Positions 12,891 through 60,511 of a DNA stretch of 64,000 nucleotides are shown here, piece after piece. Source of the DNA: Bacteroidota bacterium (GTDB lineage Bacteria > Bacteroidota > Ignavibacteria > UBA10030); the NCBI GenBank assembly GCA_025454835.1, contig JALONQ010000005.1, forward strand, positions 1 through 64,000. The letters run 5' to 3'. Positions within the stretch are counted from its first letter, which is position 1. Each line of letters begins with the position of its first letter. The position numbers and the translations under genes were made by a program. Below the pieces are notes generated by a model. The model was not told the origin of the DNA. It did not search any database and saw only the letters and a program-made list of their open reading frames with translations.

Positions 12891-12918
12891 CCTTTGTGAT
12901 CTTTGTGCTCTTTGTGGC
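12891..12918. repeat. CACAAAG-word repeat between kinase and regulator genes
   Basis: CCTTTGTGATCTTTGTGC followed by TCTTTGTGGC: three near-copies of the CACAAAG word (minus strand), starting 3 bases after the kinase stop codon at 12921 and before the regulator start. Same family as the arms at 22565 and 23050. It lies inside a two-gene operon. Confidence 0.8.
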
Positions 12919-19852: not shown

Positions 19853-20012
19853 AAGCAGGAAGATTGAAGATGTAAGACTGAAGATGTAAGATTGAAGATG
19901 TAAAACTGAAGCTGATGCCTCTGCCAATTCGTTGGGAGGTATTGGACTCACGCCCTCTGTCGTACATCTTATTTCTCACATCTTCCATCTCACATCTCAC
20001 ATCTTTCATCCT
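19853..20012. repeat. Inverted pair of AGATGTAAGA-type arrays (empty hairpin)
   Basis: Left arm 19853-19912: three near-copies of a 17-18 bp unit AGATTGAAGATGTAAGA. Right arm 19962-20012: the inverted form, words ATCTCACATCTTCC. A 50-bp core lies between. The element fills almost the whole gap between two convergent genes (polyprenol-kinase-like + and yraN -). As RNA it can fold into a long imperfect hairpin on either strand, so a bidirectional terminator is possible. Confidence 0.85.
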
Positions 20013-20783: not shown

Positions 20784-22535
20784 TCATCGCCCAAGGACCG
20801 CCAGCGCCATGATGAGCGCCGCCGACGCGTCGATCGTCGGTTCGTTCGTCGAATAGTCGCCGTAGTCGTCATGATAGACGGCCCACGAGCTCTGGAAGCG
20901 CGCGAACTCGTCGGGTTCGGTGAGATGCAGGCCGAGCAGTGAGCCGTAGATCGAGCCGAAGACCGGTCCGTCGACGACCGCACCCGTCGCAACGATCGGA
21001 TGCTTCCGCGTCATGACGTGGTGGATGTCCCTCGGCCAGGAGCCGTCGCTCGGCACGTTGACGACGAAGCATTGCCCCCACGGATTGCGACCGAACAGCC
21101 AGTCGCGCGAAGCGGCCGCCAGCGCGGCGAACCGGTCATCGCCCCCCATCTGCCGGTAGAACCACTCTTGCAGGATCAGACCGAGGTTGACATTGTTCGA
21201 CACCCAGATGAGCGGCACCCCGTAGCCGAAGGAGTTGTTCGTCGCCGCGCGTTGCGCGCGTTCGAGTCCCCTGGCATAGTACCCGCGCAACGAATCCTTC
21301 ACATCCTTCGGGGCGTGGCGATACAGCGCGAAGTGGCCGGGATTGACGTACGGGAAATATTCGTAGTGACGCGCTGAATCCTTGCCCATCCACGAGGTGT
21401 CCGCCGCCAGGGCCGACCATCGGATGGCATCCTGCAGGTATCGTCGCTCCTTCGTCAACCCATACAGTTCCGCCGCTCCCCACTCCATATCGTCGTGCCA
21501 CGTGATCTCGTGGAAACGGTAGGGGGCGCGATTCGGGACCGATTCCGATGTGCCCGGCTTTGTCAGGCCCAGCTCGTACAGGTCGCGCGAACGGTCCGCC
21601 AGTCGATCCGCAAAACCGTCGTCCCATCGCCCGGCGCGCCACAGCCGCGACCCGAGCGCCATGACCGCCGCCGTACGTCCCGCCACATTGGCGACGCCTG
21701 TCGAGGTGTTCTGGTACTTGCCGAGCCCTTGCGGCGTTCCCGTCGCCACATAGACCGGACGTCCGTTCCCTTTCCCCCAACCGTAATCAGTCGTGTCACG
21801 CCACGGGAATTTGGCGTAGATGTGGTCACGATCATCAGCCACCTGGTGATACAACACCCCCGGAGCGGGCGCAAGCTTCAGCATCCATTCCAGTCCCCAA
21901 CGCGCTTCGTCCATGACGTCGGGCACGCCGTTCGGCCCGGGACGCCCGCTGGCATCCACGGAATCGCGCCACGGCGCCGCCCCATTCTCATACGCCATCA
22001 GGAGCAATCCGGTGGTGTAACTCGTCGAGATGAGGAATCGCAGATAGTCGGATGCGTCATGGTACCCGCCGCTGGCGTCCACGCGCGTACCCTCACCGGA
22101 TCCGGCCACGAGAACCCCGTCGGTCGTGTGGCAGAGCGTGTCGTAGACCGGATTGTATCCGCATCGCTGCTGCGCGAGATAGAAGAGCGCCGCTTCTTTG
22201 TGACGCGTGTAGGCGTCGGCCGCGACCGAGAACGACATCGGCTCCGCGCCGGGCACGGAGACCACGTATCGACCCGGCTTTGCCGCGACCGATAGGTCGA
22301 CCGCGTACGTTACGGGGAATTGGCCGTAGGATGGACCGGGGCTCCGCAGTTCCGTGCGCAGAACGACCGCACCCGAAGCATCCCTCACGATCGCCGTCTC
22401 TCCGTCGAGCCGCTCCTCCGCGAGCACGACGGCCGACTTGAGGTCGTCGGGCATGAAGCCGAGTTGGGAGAGGCGGATGACCGGCTGGGCGGAGGCTGTG
22501 GCCAGAACACAGAAGCAAAACGTCAGACGGAACAT
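20784..22535 (-). CDS. Secreted glycoside hydrolase family 9 (endoglucanase-like)
   Basis: 583 residues from ATG at 22535, with ribosome site GGAGGGA and a signal peptide (MFRLTFCFCVLATASAQ). An N-terminal immunoglobulin-like CelD domain (about 20-115, starting IRLSQLGFMPDDLKSAVVL) precedes the GH9 catalytic domain. Expected GH9 elements are GGYHDASDYLRFL (catalytic base aspartates), WLFGRNPWGQ and the C-terminal STNEPTIDASAALIMAL (general acid glutamate). GH9 enzymes cut beta-1,4-glucans. No sorting domain is seen, so it is probably periplasmic or released. The frame upstream of 22535 encodes repeat-derived residues and is not part of the protein. Confidence 0.88.
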   Translation of the reverse strand: MFRLTFCFCVLATASAQPVIRLSQLGFMPDDLKSAVVLAEERLDGETAIVRDASGAVVLRTELRSPGPSYGQFPVTYAVDLSVAAKPGRYVVSVPGAEPMSFSVAADAYTRHKEAALFYLAQQRCGYNPVYDTLCHTTDGVLVAGSGEGTRVDASGGYHDASDYLRFLISTSYTTGLLLMAYENGAAPWRDSVDASGRPGPNGVPDVMDEARWGLEWMLKLAPAPGVLYHQVADDRDHIYAKFPWRDTTDYGWGKGNGRPVYVATGTPQGLGKYQNTSTGVANVAGRTAAVMALGSRLWRAGRWDDGFADRLADRSRDLYELGLTKPGTSESVPNRAPYRFHEITWHDDMEWGAAELYGLTKERRYLQDAIRWSALAADTSWMGKDSARHYEYFPYVNPGHFALYRHAPKDVKDSLRGYYARGLERAQRAATNNSFGYGVPLIWVSNNVNLGLILQEWFYRQMGGDDRFAALAAASRDWLFGRNPWGQCFVVNVPSDGSWPRDIHHVMTRKHPIVATGAVVDGPVFGSIYGSLLGLHLTEPDEFARFQSSWAVYHDDYGDYSTNEPTIDASAALIMALAVLGR

Positions 22536-22564
22536 AGCGTCCCTCCAGCAGGAATTGAAGTTAG

Positions 22565-22590
22565 CCACAAAGAACACAGAGATCACAAAG
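22565..22590. repeat. CACAAAG arm, left of the GxxExxY gene
   Basis: Plus-strand word array beginning CCACAAAGAACACAGAG and ending TCACAAAG, 26 bp. It pairs with the inverted array at 23050-23075 (22 of 26 positions complementary). The two arms enclose the GxxExxY gene. Confidence 0.9.
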
Positions 22591-22630
22591 CATGAGTCGA
22601 TGGATTGGGTCTTGGAAGAGGGCAAACAGG

Positions 22631-22996
22631 TCAAAGGATGTATTTGCGAATCTGAAAGCGATAGGACCCGAAGTTGATCAGTATCCCATGCTTCTGCCGT
22701 GAGGCCCGGAGGTAGCCCAAGATCTGTGCCTCGTGCTCGGGCGCGATGGTTCGTGTGGCCTTCAACTCGACGAGGAGCGTCCGGTCAACAAAAAGGTCGG
22801 CGAAGTACGACCCGACTTCCGTTCCGTCTTCGTCGTAGACCACCAGAGGCCATTGCTGCCGCACCTCATGACCGCGTTGGATGAGCCGATGCGTCATCGC
22901 ATTCTCGTATACTTTCTCCAGATGACCTTGGCCAAAGTACACGTGCACCTCATATGCGATCTGACGTACCTCGTCGCACAGTCGACGAATCTCCAT
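22631..22996 (-). CDS. GxxExxY protein (PDDEXK_3 family)
   Basis: 121 residues from ATG at 22996, chosen for the strong ribosome site GGAGG just upstream. A longer frame from 23104 would add residues encoded by the CACAAAG repeat (NHKEHKEHKE). The name-giving motif is GHLEKVY (GxxExxY). A PD-(D/E)XK nuclease core is seen as DLFVDRTLLVELKATR, with aspartate and the E-L-K triad, then the helix EAQILGYLRASR. Function in cells is not known; members are frequent in environmental genomes. It is enclosed by inverted CACAAAG arms at 22565 and 23050, and shares the strand of its neighbours. Confidence 0.92.
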   Translation of the reverse strand: MEIRRLCDEVRQIAYEVHVYFGQGHLEKVYENAMTHRLIQRGHEVRQQWPLVVYDEDGTEVGSYFADLFVDRTLLVELKATRTIAPEHEAQILGYLRASRQKHGILINFGSYRFQIRKYIL

Positions 22997-23049
22997 ACCC
23001 CCCTCCTCCAGACTTGAGACTGCAACATTCATCAACAACACATCAACTT

Positions 23050-23167
23050 CTTTGTGTTCCTTGTGCTCTTTGTGGTTACATCCTCCCACAGGCGGGTCTG
23101 CCACACATCTATTTCTTCGTGTTCTGTGTGTCCTTCGTGCCCTTTGTGGTTACATCTTCCCACAGGT
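23050..23167. repeat. Tandem CACAAAG arm, right of the GxxExxY gene and in rnhB
   Basis: Two copies of one unit on the plus strand: CTTTGTGTTCCTTGTGCTC, then TTTGTGGTTACATC, CTCCCACAGG (23050-23092), and again CTTCGTGTTCTGTGTGTCC, TTTGTGGTTACATC, TTCCCACAGG (23115-23165). The first is inverted relative to 22565-22590. The second forms the last codons of rnhB. Confidence 0.9.
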
Positions 23168-23762
23168 CGATCTGAATCCGGAAACTCTTCCGATGAATCG
23201 GCGACAATCCGAACTCCGCGATGGCCTTCCGGTGTTGTTCCGTTCCGTAGCCTTTGTGCGCCGCGAAGCCGTACTCGGGATACTGCCGGTCGTACTCCAT
23301 CATGATCCGGTCCCGCTCCACCTTGGCGATGATCGACGCCGCGGCGATGGAGAAGCACAACGCGTCGCCGTCGACGATGTTCACGAACGTGAGCGTGTCG
23401 TGCCGGAACGAATTGCCGTCGATCAAGAGGAGGTCGGGAGGAACAGCCAGGGCGCGGACCGCCTGCTCCATGGCGAGGTTGGTTGCCCGGAGGATGTTGA
23501 TGCGGTCGATCTCGTCGTGCGGCACGACACCGACACCGACCTCGGCCGCCTTCGCACGGATCTCGACCGCGAGCGCCTCGCGGCGCGGCGGACTCAGGAC
23601 CTTTGAATCATCGACCCCGGGAATGAAGACGCCGGGTGAGAAGACAACGGCTGCCGCCACGACCGGACCGGCCAGGGGCCCGCGGCCGGCTTCGTCGACG
23701 CCCGCAATGCGCTCTGCGCCTCGCGAACGGTAGGTCTCTTCGAGATGGGGATCGGTGGACAT
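23109..23762 (-). CDS. rnhB: Ribonuclease HII with a repeat-encoded tail
   Basis: 217 residues. RNase HII core with GVDEAGRGPLAGPVVAAAVV (metal-binding Asp-Glu), the catalytic aspartate in LLLIDGNS and the AAASIIAKVERDRIM motif. It removes ribonucleotides and RNA primers from DNA. The usual end near FRIQID is followed by LWEDVTTKGTKDTQNTKK, which is translated from the intergenic repeat at 23115-23165; the catalytic core is intact, so the tail is probably tolerated. It begins 3 bp after the UbiA gene. Confidence 0.93.
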   Translation of the reverse strand: MSTDPHLEETYRSRGAERIAGVDEAGRGPLAGPVVAAAVVFSPGVFIPGVDDSKVLSPPRREALAVEIRAKAAEVGVGVVPHDEIDRINILRATNLAMEQAVRALAVPPDLLLIDGNSFRHDTLTFVNIVDGDALCFSIAAASIIAKVERDRIMMEYDRQYPEYGFAAHKGYGTEQHRKAIAEFGLSPIHRKSFRIQIDLWEDVTTKGTKDTQNTKK

Positions 23763-53278: not shown

Positions 53279-53324
53279 GACTCCAAACTCCAGGGCTGCA
53301 GATGCCAAACAGACGGCAGACGAC
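53279..53324. repeat. TTTGGAGTCTG arm, left of the first four-helix-bundle gene
   Basis: Plus-strand GACTCCAAACTCCAGGGC and GATGCCAAACAGACGGCAG. The reverse complement (words GTCTGTTTGG, TTTGGAGTC, GCATCTG) matches the array at 53776-53944. The two enclose the four-helix-bundle gene at 53385-53738. The arm starts about 60 bp upstream of the dnaG start codon. Confidence 0.85.
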
Positions 53325-53384
53325 AAATTGACAGTTGTCAGGACTGGATTCGAATTCGAATGCATGAAATCCCGGCCGATCTGG

Positions 53385-53738
53385 TCACATCTTCTCCTCA
53401 GATTTCTTGATGATCGCGGAGAGAATCTTGAGGAGTTGAGTGGCTTCATCTGTCAGTCGGTCGCGTTCCTTGGCGTGGGCCTCATGAACCTCGAGTAGTC
53501 CGAGCCAATGGCGAGATTCTTTCGCTTCTTTGCGTGAGATCCTCACGTGGAGGAGAAAGTCCTTTTGGCTCACGGCCTCATTCGCTTCGATGTAGTTCGC
53601 CCCGACCGAACCGGCCGCCCGGACCAACTGCCGAATGATCTCGATCATCGCGGGGGTCGGAATCACGTGTTTGGTGAGTGAGATGACGTCACGCGCGAAT
53701 GTTTGCATCCGTTGTTCCAGCGCTTGATAGCGATTCAT
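53385..53738 (-). CDS. Four-helix-bundle protein (23S rRNA IVP/S23 family), copy 1
   Basis: 117 residues from ATG at 53738 with a reasonable AAGGGA site; a longer frame from 53969 adds only repeat-derived residues (SKQMADPKWPDSKQT). The fold is four amphipathic helices with the family-typical RQLVRAAGSVGANYIEANEA and DFLLHVRISRKEAKESRHWL. The family is found in 23S rRNA intervening sequences, and Avd of diversity-generating retroelements is a relative; no retroelement is near. It is enclosed by inverted TTTGGAGTCTG arms (53279 and 53776). Function unknown. Confidence 0.9.
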   Translation of the reverse strand: MNRYQALEQRMQTFARDVISLTKHVIPTPAMIEIIRQLVRAAGSVGANYIEANEAVSQKDFLLHVRISRKEAKESRHWLGLLEVHEAHAKERDRLTDEATQLLKILSAIIKKSEEKM

Positions 53739-53775
53739 AACGTCCCTTGCTGTGCGACGATGATAGGTTGTCCGC

Positions 53776-53944
53776 ATTCTATCTGGCATTTGGCTCTTTG
53801 GCATCTGCCGTCTGTCTGGAATCTGACCATTTGGAGTCTGTCGTCTGTTTGGAGTCTGCCATCTGGCATCTGTCGTCTGTTTGGAGTCTGGCCATTTGGG
53901 ATCTGCCATCTGTTTGGAGTCTGCCATCTGGCATCTGGAGTCTG
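53776..53944. repeat. TTTGGAGTCTG array, right of the first four-helix-bundle gene
   Basis: About ten words of the types CATCTGCCGTCTGTCTGG, ATTTGGAGTCTGTCGTCTG and GTTTGGAGTCTGCCATCTGG. It is inverted relative to 53279-53324. It lies upstream of the four-helix-bundle gene and ends at a terminator-like hairpin (53944). Confidence 0.92.
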
Positions 53945-59975: not shown

Positions 59976-60012
59976 GAAGGTGGCAGGTGAGGGGTGGAAG
60001 GTGATGGGAAGG
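59976..60012. repeat. AGGTGAAAGGTG-family arm, left of the second four-helix-bundle gene
   Basis: GAAGGTGGCAGGTGAGGGG, TGGAAGGTGATGGGAAGGG: words of the AGGTG family on the plus strand. The inverted form (CACCTCTAACCGTTCACC) is at 60476-60511. The two enclose the four-helix-bundle gene. Confidence 0.75.
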
Positions 60013-60014
60013 GA

Positions 60015-60401
60015 TCAGCGTCGTTTCCGAGGGTCGTAGCCACTGAGTGAACGCTCAAGGCCTTTCAGCATGAGGCGGCATTCCTCGTACCTGCCCAAGA
60101 GCGAATGCAGTTGGTCATCGCTCAGATATTTCTTTCTATGTGCCACCGTCAGATGATGGCGCGTCTCCTGGATCTCAGCGAGAGCACGATTGATGCCTTC
60201 GAGATAGATTGCGGTGTGTCGGTTGTTCCACCCTTCTGCCAGGTTAGCCGGGCCCGAGTTCGAAGACCTTCGAACTTGCGACCCAAGCTCATAGAGTTCA
60301 AACCTCGGAAAGGAAAGAGAGATCTCGTGTACCTCAAAGACCAGCGCAAGCAGCTTTTGATAGACAACGAGGTCCTCAAAGCTATGGATAGCCTGTTCCA
60401 T
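60015..60401 (-). CDS. Four-helix-bundle protein (23S rRNA IVP/S23 family), copy 2
   Basis: 128 residues from ATG at 60401, with GAGGGGG upstream. Helical, with the family core FELYELGSQVRRSSNSGPAN, the NLAEGWNNR motif, and HHLTVAHRKKYLSDDQLHSL. About 30% similar in layout to the copy at 53385 but clearly divergent. It is enclosed by inverted AGGTG arms (59976 and 60476). Function unknown. Confidence 0.9.
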   Translation of the reverse strand: MEQAIHSFEDLVVYQKLLALVFEVHEISLSFPRFELYELGSQVRRSSNSGPANLAEGWNNRHTAIYLEGINRALAEIQETRHHLTVAHRKKYLSDDQLHSLLGRYEECRLMLKGLERSLSGYDPRKRR

Positions 60402-60475
60402 GATACTTCCCCCTCAGGAAGTGATATGTCAACTACGGTACAGCTCGGCTCGTCCCAGCAGACCGATGAAACCTT

Positions 60476-60511
60476 CACCACACCTCTAACCGTTCACCTT
60501 ACACCTTTCTT
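60476..60511. repeat. AGGTGAAAGGTG-family arm, right of the second four-helix-bundle gene
   Basis: ACCACACCTCTAACCG and TTCACCTTACACCTTTCTT: the inverted form of the arm at 59976. It lies between the four-helix-bundle gene and the aminotransferase stop codon (60510) and touches that stop. Confidence 0.75.

Follow-up and report, generated by a model that had tools for sequence, protein, structure and literature searches.

A small gene on the minus strand of the window (the whole 64-kb stretch of DNA that was analysed) is enclosed by a pair of inverted short-word arrays. It lies between rnhB and a GH9-like gene, outside 23S rRNA, and the gene order rnhB > GxxExxY > GH9-like runs entirely on the minus strand. 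The features of the locus are as follows.

20784..22535, minus strand: GH9-like (cellobiosidase-like) gene, downstream neighbour, co-directional
22562..22590, plus strand: 3′-side outer arm of the gene, TAGCCACAAAGAACACAGAGATCACAAAG, made up of three 9-nt CACARAG-type words
22631..22996, minus strand: gene for a 121-aa GxxExxY / PDDEXK_3 protein, with the E of GxxExxY, the D and the E-x-K all in place
22997..23009, minus strand: GGAGGAGGGGGGT leader, immediately 5′ of the ATG
23050..23078, minus strand: 5′-side outer arm of the gene, the inverted counterpart of 22562-22590
23109..23762, minus strand: rnhB (RNase HII), upstream neighbour, co-directional
23122..23174, minus strand: 53-nt tandem duplicate of the right arm (83% to 23048-23100), which includes the 3′ end of rnhB

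The outer arms (22562-22590 and 23050-23078) are 29 nt long, match at 24 of 29 positions (83% complementarity) and are separated by a 459-nt gap. An earlier sequence-only reading of the window had given 22 matches in 26, which holds over those 26 columns; the second copy of the right arm that it had seen is the 53-nt tandem copy at 23122-23174, the two copies being spaced 74 nt. The local-alignment score of the arms was 33, against 26 at the 99th percentile of random window flanks; taken by itself, such a score would arise by chance in about one case in a hundred or more rarely. As the tandem copy also carries the end of rnhB, its word array now encodes the C-terminal 17 residues of RNase HII, WEDVTTKGTKDTQNTKK; RNase HII of relatives ends soon after HR(K/R)SF. 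A G-run leader precedes the ATG in most other GxxExxY and four-helix-bundle genes of this genome; GGGGG within 25 nt 5′ of the first possible start was seen in 0/24 long window ORFs, a crude control since ORF starts were uncurated. An Rfam scan of the 64-kb window matched no family.

The gene at 22631-22996 had been read as GxxExxY (PDDEXK_3), and profile matches agree: its product matched TIGR04256 GxxExxY (E 2.9e-32, 111 bits, cut-off 35) and PF13366 PDDEXK_3 (E 5e-30, 104.7 bits, cut-off 22), with the GxxExxY...D...ExK core in place. No other Pfam or NCBIfam family was matched; in particular, a Y1/HUH (TnpA_REP) transposase is absent from the target. Residues E27, D67, E77 and K79 are invariant in our alignment A2, and the E of GxxExxY, the D and the (E/D)xK are kept in all 76 intact named copies (76/76). 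The AlphaFold2 model is a confident single-domain PD-(D/E)XK fold (pLDDT 94.6). Its best solved structural match is 4ic1 (SSO0001; Z 10), the nearest solved chains being RecB/Cas4-like and restriction-type nucleases; a sequence search against solved structures gave no match.

We compared flanks of phylum-wide sets of GxxExxY and TIGR02436 loci with those of RbfA and of HepT-like genes, the latter a control for small toxin-antitoxin genes. Inverted arms with a score of at least 28 were found at 55/74 GxxExxY and 52/82 TIGR02436 loci, but at only 1/30 RbfA and 0/29 HepT-like loci; they are, then, far commoner around GxxExxY than around other small genes. In a named set of 80 loci, 74 with both flanks, arms were present at 56/74. 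The named set covers Bacteroidota, Ignavibacteria, Planctomycetota, Acidobacteria, Chloroflexota, Cyanobacteria, several proteobacterial classes, Verrucomicrobiota, Armatimonadetes, Nitrospinota, Dadabacteria and methanogenic Archaea, although single assignments can be wrong as most records are metagenome-assembled. The median element length is 469 bp. Conserved terminal inverted repeats are thus tied to the gene, as in mobile elements of IS/MITE type.

Each arm repeats an 8-9 nt word, CRCRRAG followed by 1-2 nt, in fixed polarity; the arm consensus of the named loci is near TTYACCRCRGAGRCRCRGAG, with a period of 8-9 nt. At least three CRCRRAG words in proper polarity within 200 bp were present at 131/159 GxxExxY loci and at none of the TIGR02436 (0/82), RbfA (0/30) and HepT-like (0/29) loci. 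A part of this signal (GC-rich flanks or neighbouring arrays) is non-specific, since the same count was reached at GxxExxY loci by words of opposite polarity (36/159) and by the reversed word (23/159); the control families stay at zero. Some cassettes have CRCRRATT in place of CRCRRAG. On a FastTree tree of the 159 proteins this AG or ATT label changes four times (label shuffles: mean 10.7, minimum 8), suggesting that the word class follows the protein tree; the agreement is supportive but not conclusive, as the minority class has 11 members, four of which are orthologs at one site.

The abundance of arrays also goes with the gene. Among 247 genomes, kinship ignored, at least five arrays were found in 55/121 genomes with the gene and in 3/126 without it; at least 20 arrays were found in 25 genomes with the gene and in none without it. 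The reversed pattern never gave five arrays in any of the 247 genomes. Counts include the arrays of gene-bearing cassettes themselves, but the high counts are far above gene number. Three genomes (G083, G141 and G170) had 9-12 CRCARAG arrays and no TIGR04256 match; these arrays may be relics or the partners of a diverged nuclease.

Cassettes are strongly oriented with respect to neighbouring genes. In the AT-rich phylum sets, GxxExxY loci co-directional with both neighbours outnumbered those opposed to both by 43:1, and TIGR02436 loci by 52:5; in the named set the ratio was 32:5. Neighbour calls from ORFs are crude, and paralogs and relatives are non-independent. Orientation statistics rest on these larger sets because spurious antisense ORFs made the window's GC-rich genome unreliable. 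With cassettes sitting in operon junctions, expression is probably by read-through.

The same arrangement had been noticed twice more in the window, with another gene family and different words, and both instances stood up to analysis. Each carries a TIGR02436 gene of the 23S_rRNA_IVP family.

53298..53859, minus strand: cassette with TIGR02436 gene 53400-53717; arms 53298-53334 / 53823-53859, CAAACGGCAGACG-type words
59977..60507, minus strand: cassette with TIGR02436 gene 60045-60365; arms 59977-60020 / 60464-60507, AAGGTG-type words

TIGR02436 (23S_rRNA_IVP, four-helix-bundle) genes form a parallel cassette class. Their words, of 6-7 nt, are locus-specific: they differ between loci and agree within a locus, and at 40/82 loci the arms matched their own partner better than every swapped one.

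This genome holds nine GxxExxY and 15 TIGR02436 matches, and by eye most of these 24 loci are flanked by inverted arrays of locus-specific short words. When matched arms were aligned against swapped ones, 8/24 loci beat all 46 swaps; direct comparisons stayed at background. Gene-less arrays are present as well, including the following in the window.

12892..12916, minus strand: gene-less CACAAAG array, a single arm with the word of the cassette
19860..20005, no strand assigned: gene-less inverted heptamer array between genes, AAGATGTA-type words; arms 19860-19902 / 19963-20005, 60-nt loop

A further inverted pair, of AACGCTGA-type words with a 138-nt loop, lies at the window edge (78-105 / 244-271).

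CACARAG pairs without a gene are scattered through this genome. In the sampled part of it, 16/16 such pairs had CACARAG first and the complement second, which is the polarity of the cassette (reverse order, 0), and none of their loops was recognised as a deleted version of the gene. Many gene-less inverted pairs therefore share the ends of the gene-bearing copy, as REPINs do. Agreement of gene-less arms was 22.4/28 with their own partner and 22.9/28 with swapped ones (13 of the 16 pairs); as the own match is no better than the swapped, these arms conform to one consensus, near GCCACAAAGARCACARAGARCACARAG, rather than being held complementary to each other.

At orthologous sites, occupancy varies. 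In a genome of the same genus (G001) rnhB is joined straight to the GH9-like gene with no cassette, and another genome (G016) has the same rnhB/GH9-like order without the GxxExxY gene. At one site of genus g82 four species have a 452-bp GxxExxY cassette, one has a decayed copy with the arms left, and three have 28-29 bp instead. At a second g82 junction one TIGR02436 cassette is found in two species and a different one in two others, while one species (G196) has a gene-less hairpin and one has 29 bp; the right half of the G196 hairpin persists beside the cassette in G134. In genus g80, one junction compared in 19 species was short in ten and held an unrelated gene in one; two species had a type-1 GxxExxY gene with CRCARAG arms, two a decayed one, and four a type-2 GxxExxY gene with CACGAATT-type arms. 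Further junctions showed like differences, and outgroup sites were short, array-free junctions of 28-29 bp and 17-52 bp. Orthologous sites are empty, filled, decayed or filled by a different GxxExxY cassette, the direction of change being unpolarised; presence and absence with short junctions is what one expects of a mobile element. Relatives without the gene are also without arms, and sites with a decayed gene keep the end arms (G076, G293, G281). Along with the matched controls and the word shared across phyla, these clean differences uphold the earlier view of a cassette bounded by inverted repeats rather than chance low complexity. No target-site duplication was recognised, the flanks of filled and empty sites being too diverged, and no transposition event was seen in the compared genomes.

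At the site in L218 (G102) that is orthologous to L204:12409-12896, the right arm has become a long tandem run of CTGAACTC and the left arm no longer matches it; arrays can therefore expand on one side. A perfect palindrome of ~44 nt at L205:707-750 (AAAGGCTGTAGGGATAATTCATGAATTATCCCTACAGCCTTT), with more copies in g82 genomes, is an unrelated repeat family, and a dispersed gene-less repeat of ~110 bp at L207:19457-19581 (GTCATTTCGACGAAGGAGAAATC...), with many copies in g80 genomes, is a different family again.

As the pairing of gene and word recurs in Bacteria and Archaea, occupancy varies and gene-less copies exist, we think it probable that we are dealing with an undescribed, widespread family of very small mobile elements which have word arrays as terminal inverted repeats and encode a GxxExxY protein, gene-less arrays being non-autonomous. 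An element would consist of two inverted arrays of about three words (C-R-C-R-R-A-G, sometimes C-R-C-R-R-A-T-T, every 8-9 nt) around one GxxExxY gene. The arms would be terminal recognition arrays, read as DNA by the encoded protein, rather than a structure kept for pairing, and the short gene-less array pairs would be non-autonomous forms. Elements would occupy co-directional gene junctions, to be gained, lost or swapped there; they would spread most likely by a cut at an array or junction and subsequent copy-in from a second cassette, through repair or strand transfer. Beyond the observed anatomy, specificity of word for gene, tracking of the protein tree, gene-less copies and presence or absence at orthologous sites, we infer mobility and nuclease specificity, meaning that binding and cutting of the words by the protein would drive the spread. 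The sequence-only reading had suggested a nuclease acting on the arms or on the transcript hairpin that they form. For the arms there is indirect support: the fold and catalytic residues are preserved, the word goes with the protein phylogeny and the abundance of arrays with presence of the gene, so that the words are the probable target of the PD-(D/E)XK protein. Some gain, loss and swapping could be due to homologous recombination between flanking genes. The three genomes with arrays and no GxxExxY match, and the gene-less loops that do not look like deleted genes, also weigh against the proposal.

One could also think of site-specific homing only, with the nuclease cutting arrays, occupied or gene-less, at a fixed junction; the cassette would then be copied in by recombination via arms or flanks, with no free transposition. 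PD-(D/E)XK nucleases do include homing enzymes, one junction does hold different cassettes in close relatives (including the G196 hairpin and its remnant half in G134), and two GxxExxY types, each with its own words, occur at the g80 site. However, as outgroups have short, array-free junctions at these sites (28-29 bp and 17-52 bp), a pre-existing array is not required, and there are many loci per genome; we consider homing alone unlikely, if the best placed of the alternatives.

Somewhat less likely still is an RNA element of intervening-sequence type, in which the arms would pair in the polycistronic transcript, RNase III would excise the hairpin and selection would keep complementarity, as in 23S rRNA intervening sequences bearing S23p. 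The window does hold two cassettes with a 23S_rRNA_IVP protein, and the 23S intervening sequence of Coxiella is an S23p gene in a terminal-inverted-repeat stem cut by RNase III, with heptamer repeats before the ORF (PMC4990558). Co-directionality with both neighbours (43 vs 1; 52 vs 5 for TIGR02436) and the match of locus-specific TIGR02436 words to their own partner (40/82) would fit as well. Yet in sense RNA, G-U and A-C mismatches were balanced (84:84 for GxxExxY, 46:51 for TIGR02436), gene-less CACARAG arms fit their own partner no better than others, and across phyla it is the sequence of the GxxExxY word that is conserved, a constraint that pairing would not impose. We claim no compensatory change at orthologous arms: own pairs exceeded crossed ones mildly at one TIGR02436 site, and two other sites showed no such excess. 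Selection for RNA pairing found no support, given no mismatch asymmetry and no difference between own and swapped partners in gene-less arms. The lack of a G-U excess and the consensus shared by gene-less copies favour a DNA recognition sequence over a selected RNA hairpin for the arms of the GxxExxY class; the part of the earlier suggestion that concerned the transcript hairpin is not supported.

A resident regulatory or defence module, a nuclease serving the host (e.g. against invaders) with arms as autoregulatory operators, seems improbable to us. Strong purifying selection (dN/dS 0.02-0.14 among GxxExxY orthologs, below 0.1 for TIGR02436), zero matches in phage records searched for GxxExxY and few plasmid records with it (8/72,556) fit a resident host function as well; there are several paralogs per genome, and inverted arrays could be operators. 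Against this, PADLOC gave no strong match to a defence model, only a weak one to 69 aa of PDC-M36A (E 0.00067, 16.6 bits), the downstream arm has as many words as the upstream arm, many paired arrays are gene-less, and junctions show both gain and loss. Finally, the words are short and degenerate and there is a tandem duplication at the locus, but chance low-complexity repeats or slippage products with no link to the gene have next to no probability, the family-wide controls (0/29 and 1/30 vs 55/74), a reversed-word genome control near zero and conservation across domains making a chance origin of the arms untenable.

If the GxxExxY cassettes are mobile elements, as we think, it is worth asking which known systems they resemble. 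Insertion sequences have a single gene between terminal inverted repeats, and MITEs are their short gene-less relatives with the same ends; a GxxExxY cassette, too, is a single gene between terminal inverted repeats, with gene-less relatives sharing its ends. Unlike insertion sequences, it has no known transposase domain, is under 0.6 kb, shows no recognised target duplication, ends in word arrays and is strongly oriented with neighbouring genes. In logic, the closest system is REPIN-RAYT. RAYTs are Y1/HUH enzymes, whereas the cassette protein is PD-(D/E)XK and its repeat is an array of 8-9-nt words found in many phyla and in Archaea. The likeness lies in short, dispersed gene-less inverted units alongside a gene that has those repeats on either side and is presumed to mobilise them in trans (PMC3116915); REPs carry a GTAG/CGTC tag (PMC3733652). 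Close in anatomy is the 23S rRNA intervening sequence, an element of ~430 nt with an ORF between terminal inverted repeats and heptamer repeats before the ORF (PMC4990558), whose S23p is the family of the window's two other cassettes. Unlike this element, which is in rRNA, cassettes sit between protein genes; the target also has an unrelated protein (PDDEXK_3, not S23p), a conserved word and no sign of selection for RNA pairing. TAACTGA heptamer repeats of Beggiatoaceae, Cyanobacteria and Bacteroidetes are likewise short-word, intergenic and oriented relative to genes, but they are mostly direct repeats upstream of starts, while GxxExxY arrays are inverted pairs around a gene; the accessible part of PMC4679880 names no linked gene of this kind. 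Among open-licence papers we found none linking GxxExxY, PF13366 or TIGR02436 to flanking arrays, so novelty is provisional; a mention of GxxExxY in the myRT paper (PMC8934634) is incidental and has no link to reverse transcriptases.

A bolder proposal, about which we have rather more doubt than confidence, is that of a new class of mobile DNA in Bacteria and Archaea, in which a PD-(D/E)XK protein of ~120 residues alone would recognise 8-9-nt arrays and move its own cassette of ~470 bp as well as gene-less pairs, S23p and the 23S intervening sequences being a second branch of the architecture.

Many genomes have annotated GxxExxY and 23S_rRNA_IVP proteins to which no function is assigned. The tie to word arrays gives GxxExxY a testable DNA target in Bacteria and Archaea, and the link accounts for a class of dispersed CACAGAG-type repeats; the 23S rRNA intervening sequences, a puzzle of long standing, take their place next to a broader set of cassettes between protein genes. 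If it is true that the nuclease moves its cassette, these would be among the smallest autonomous mobile elements.
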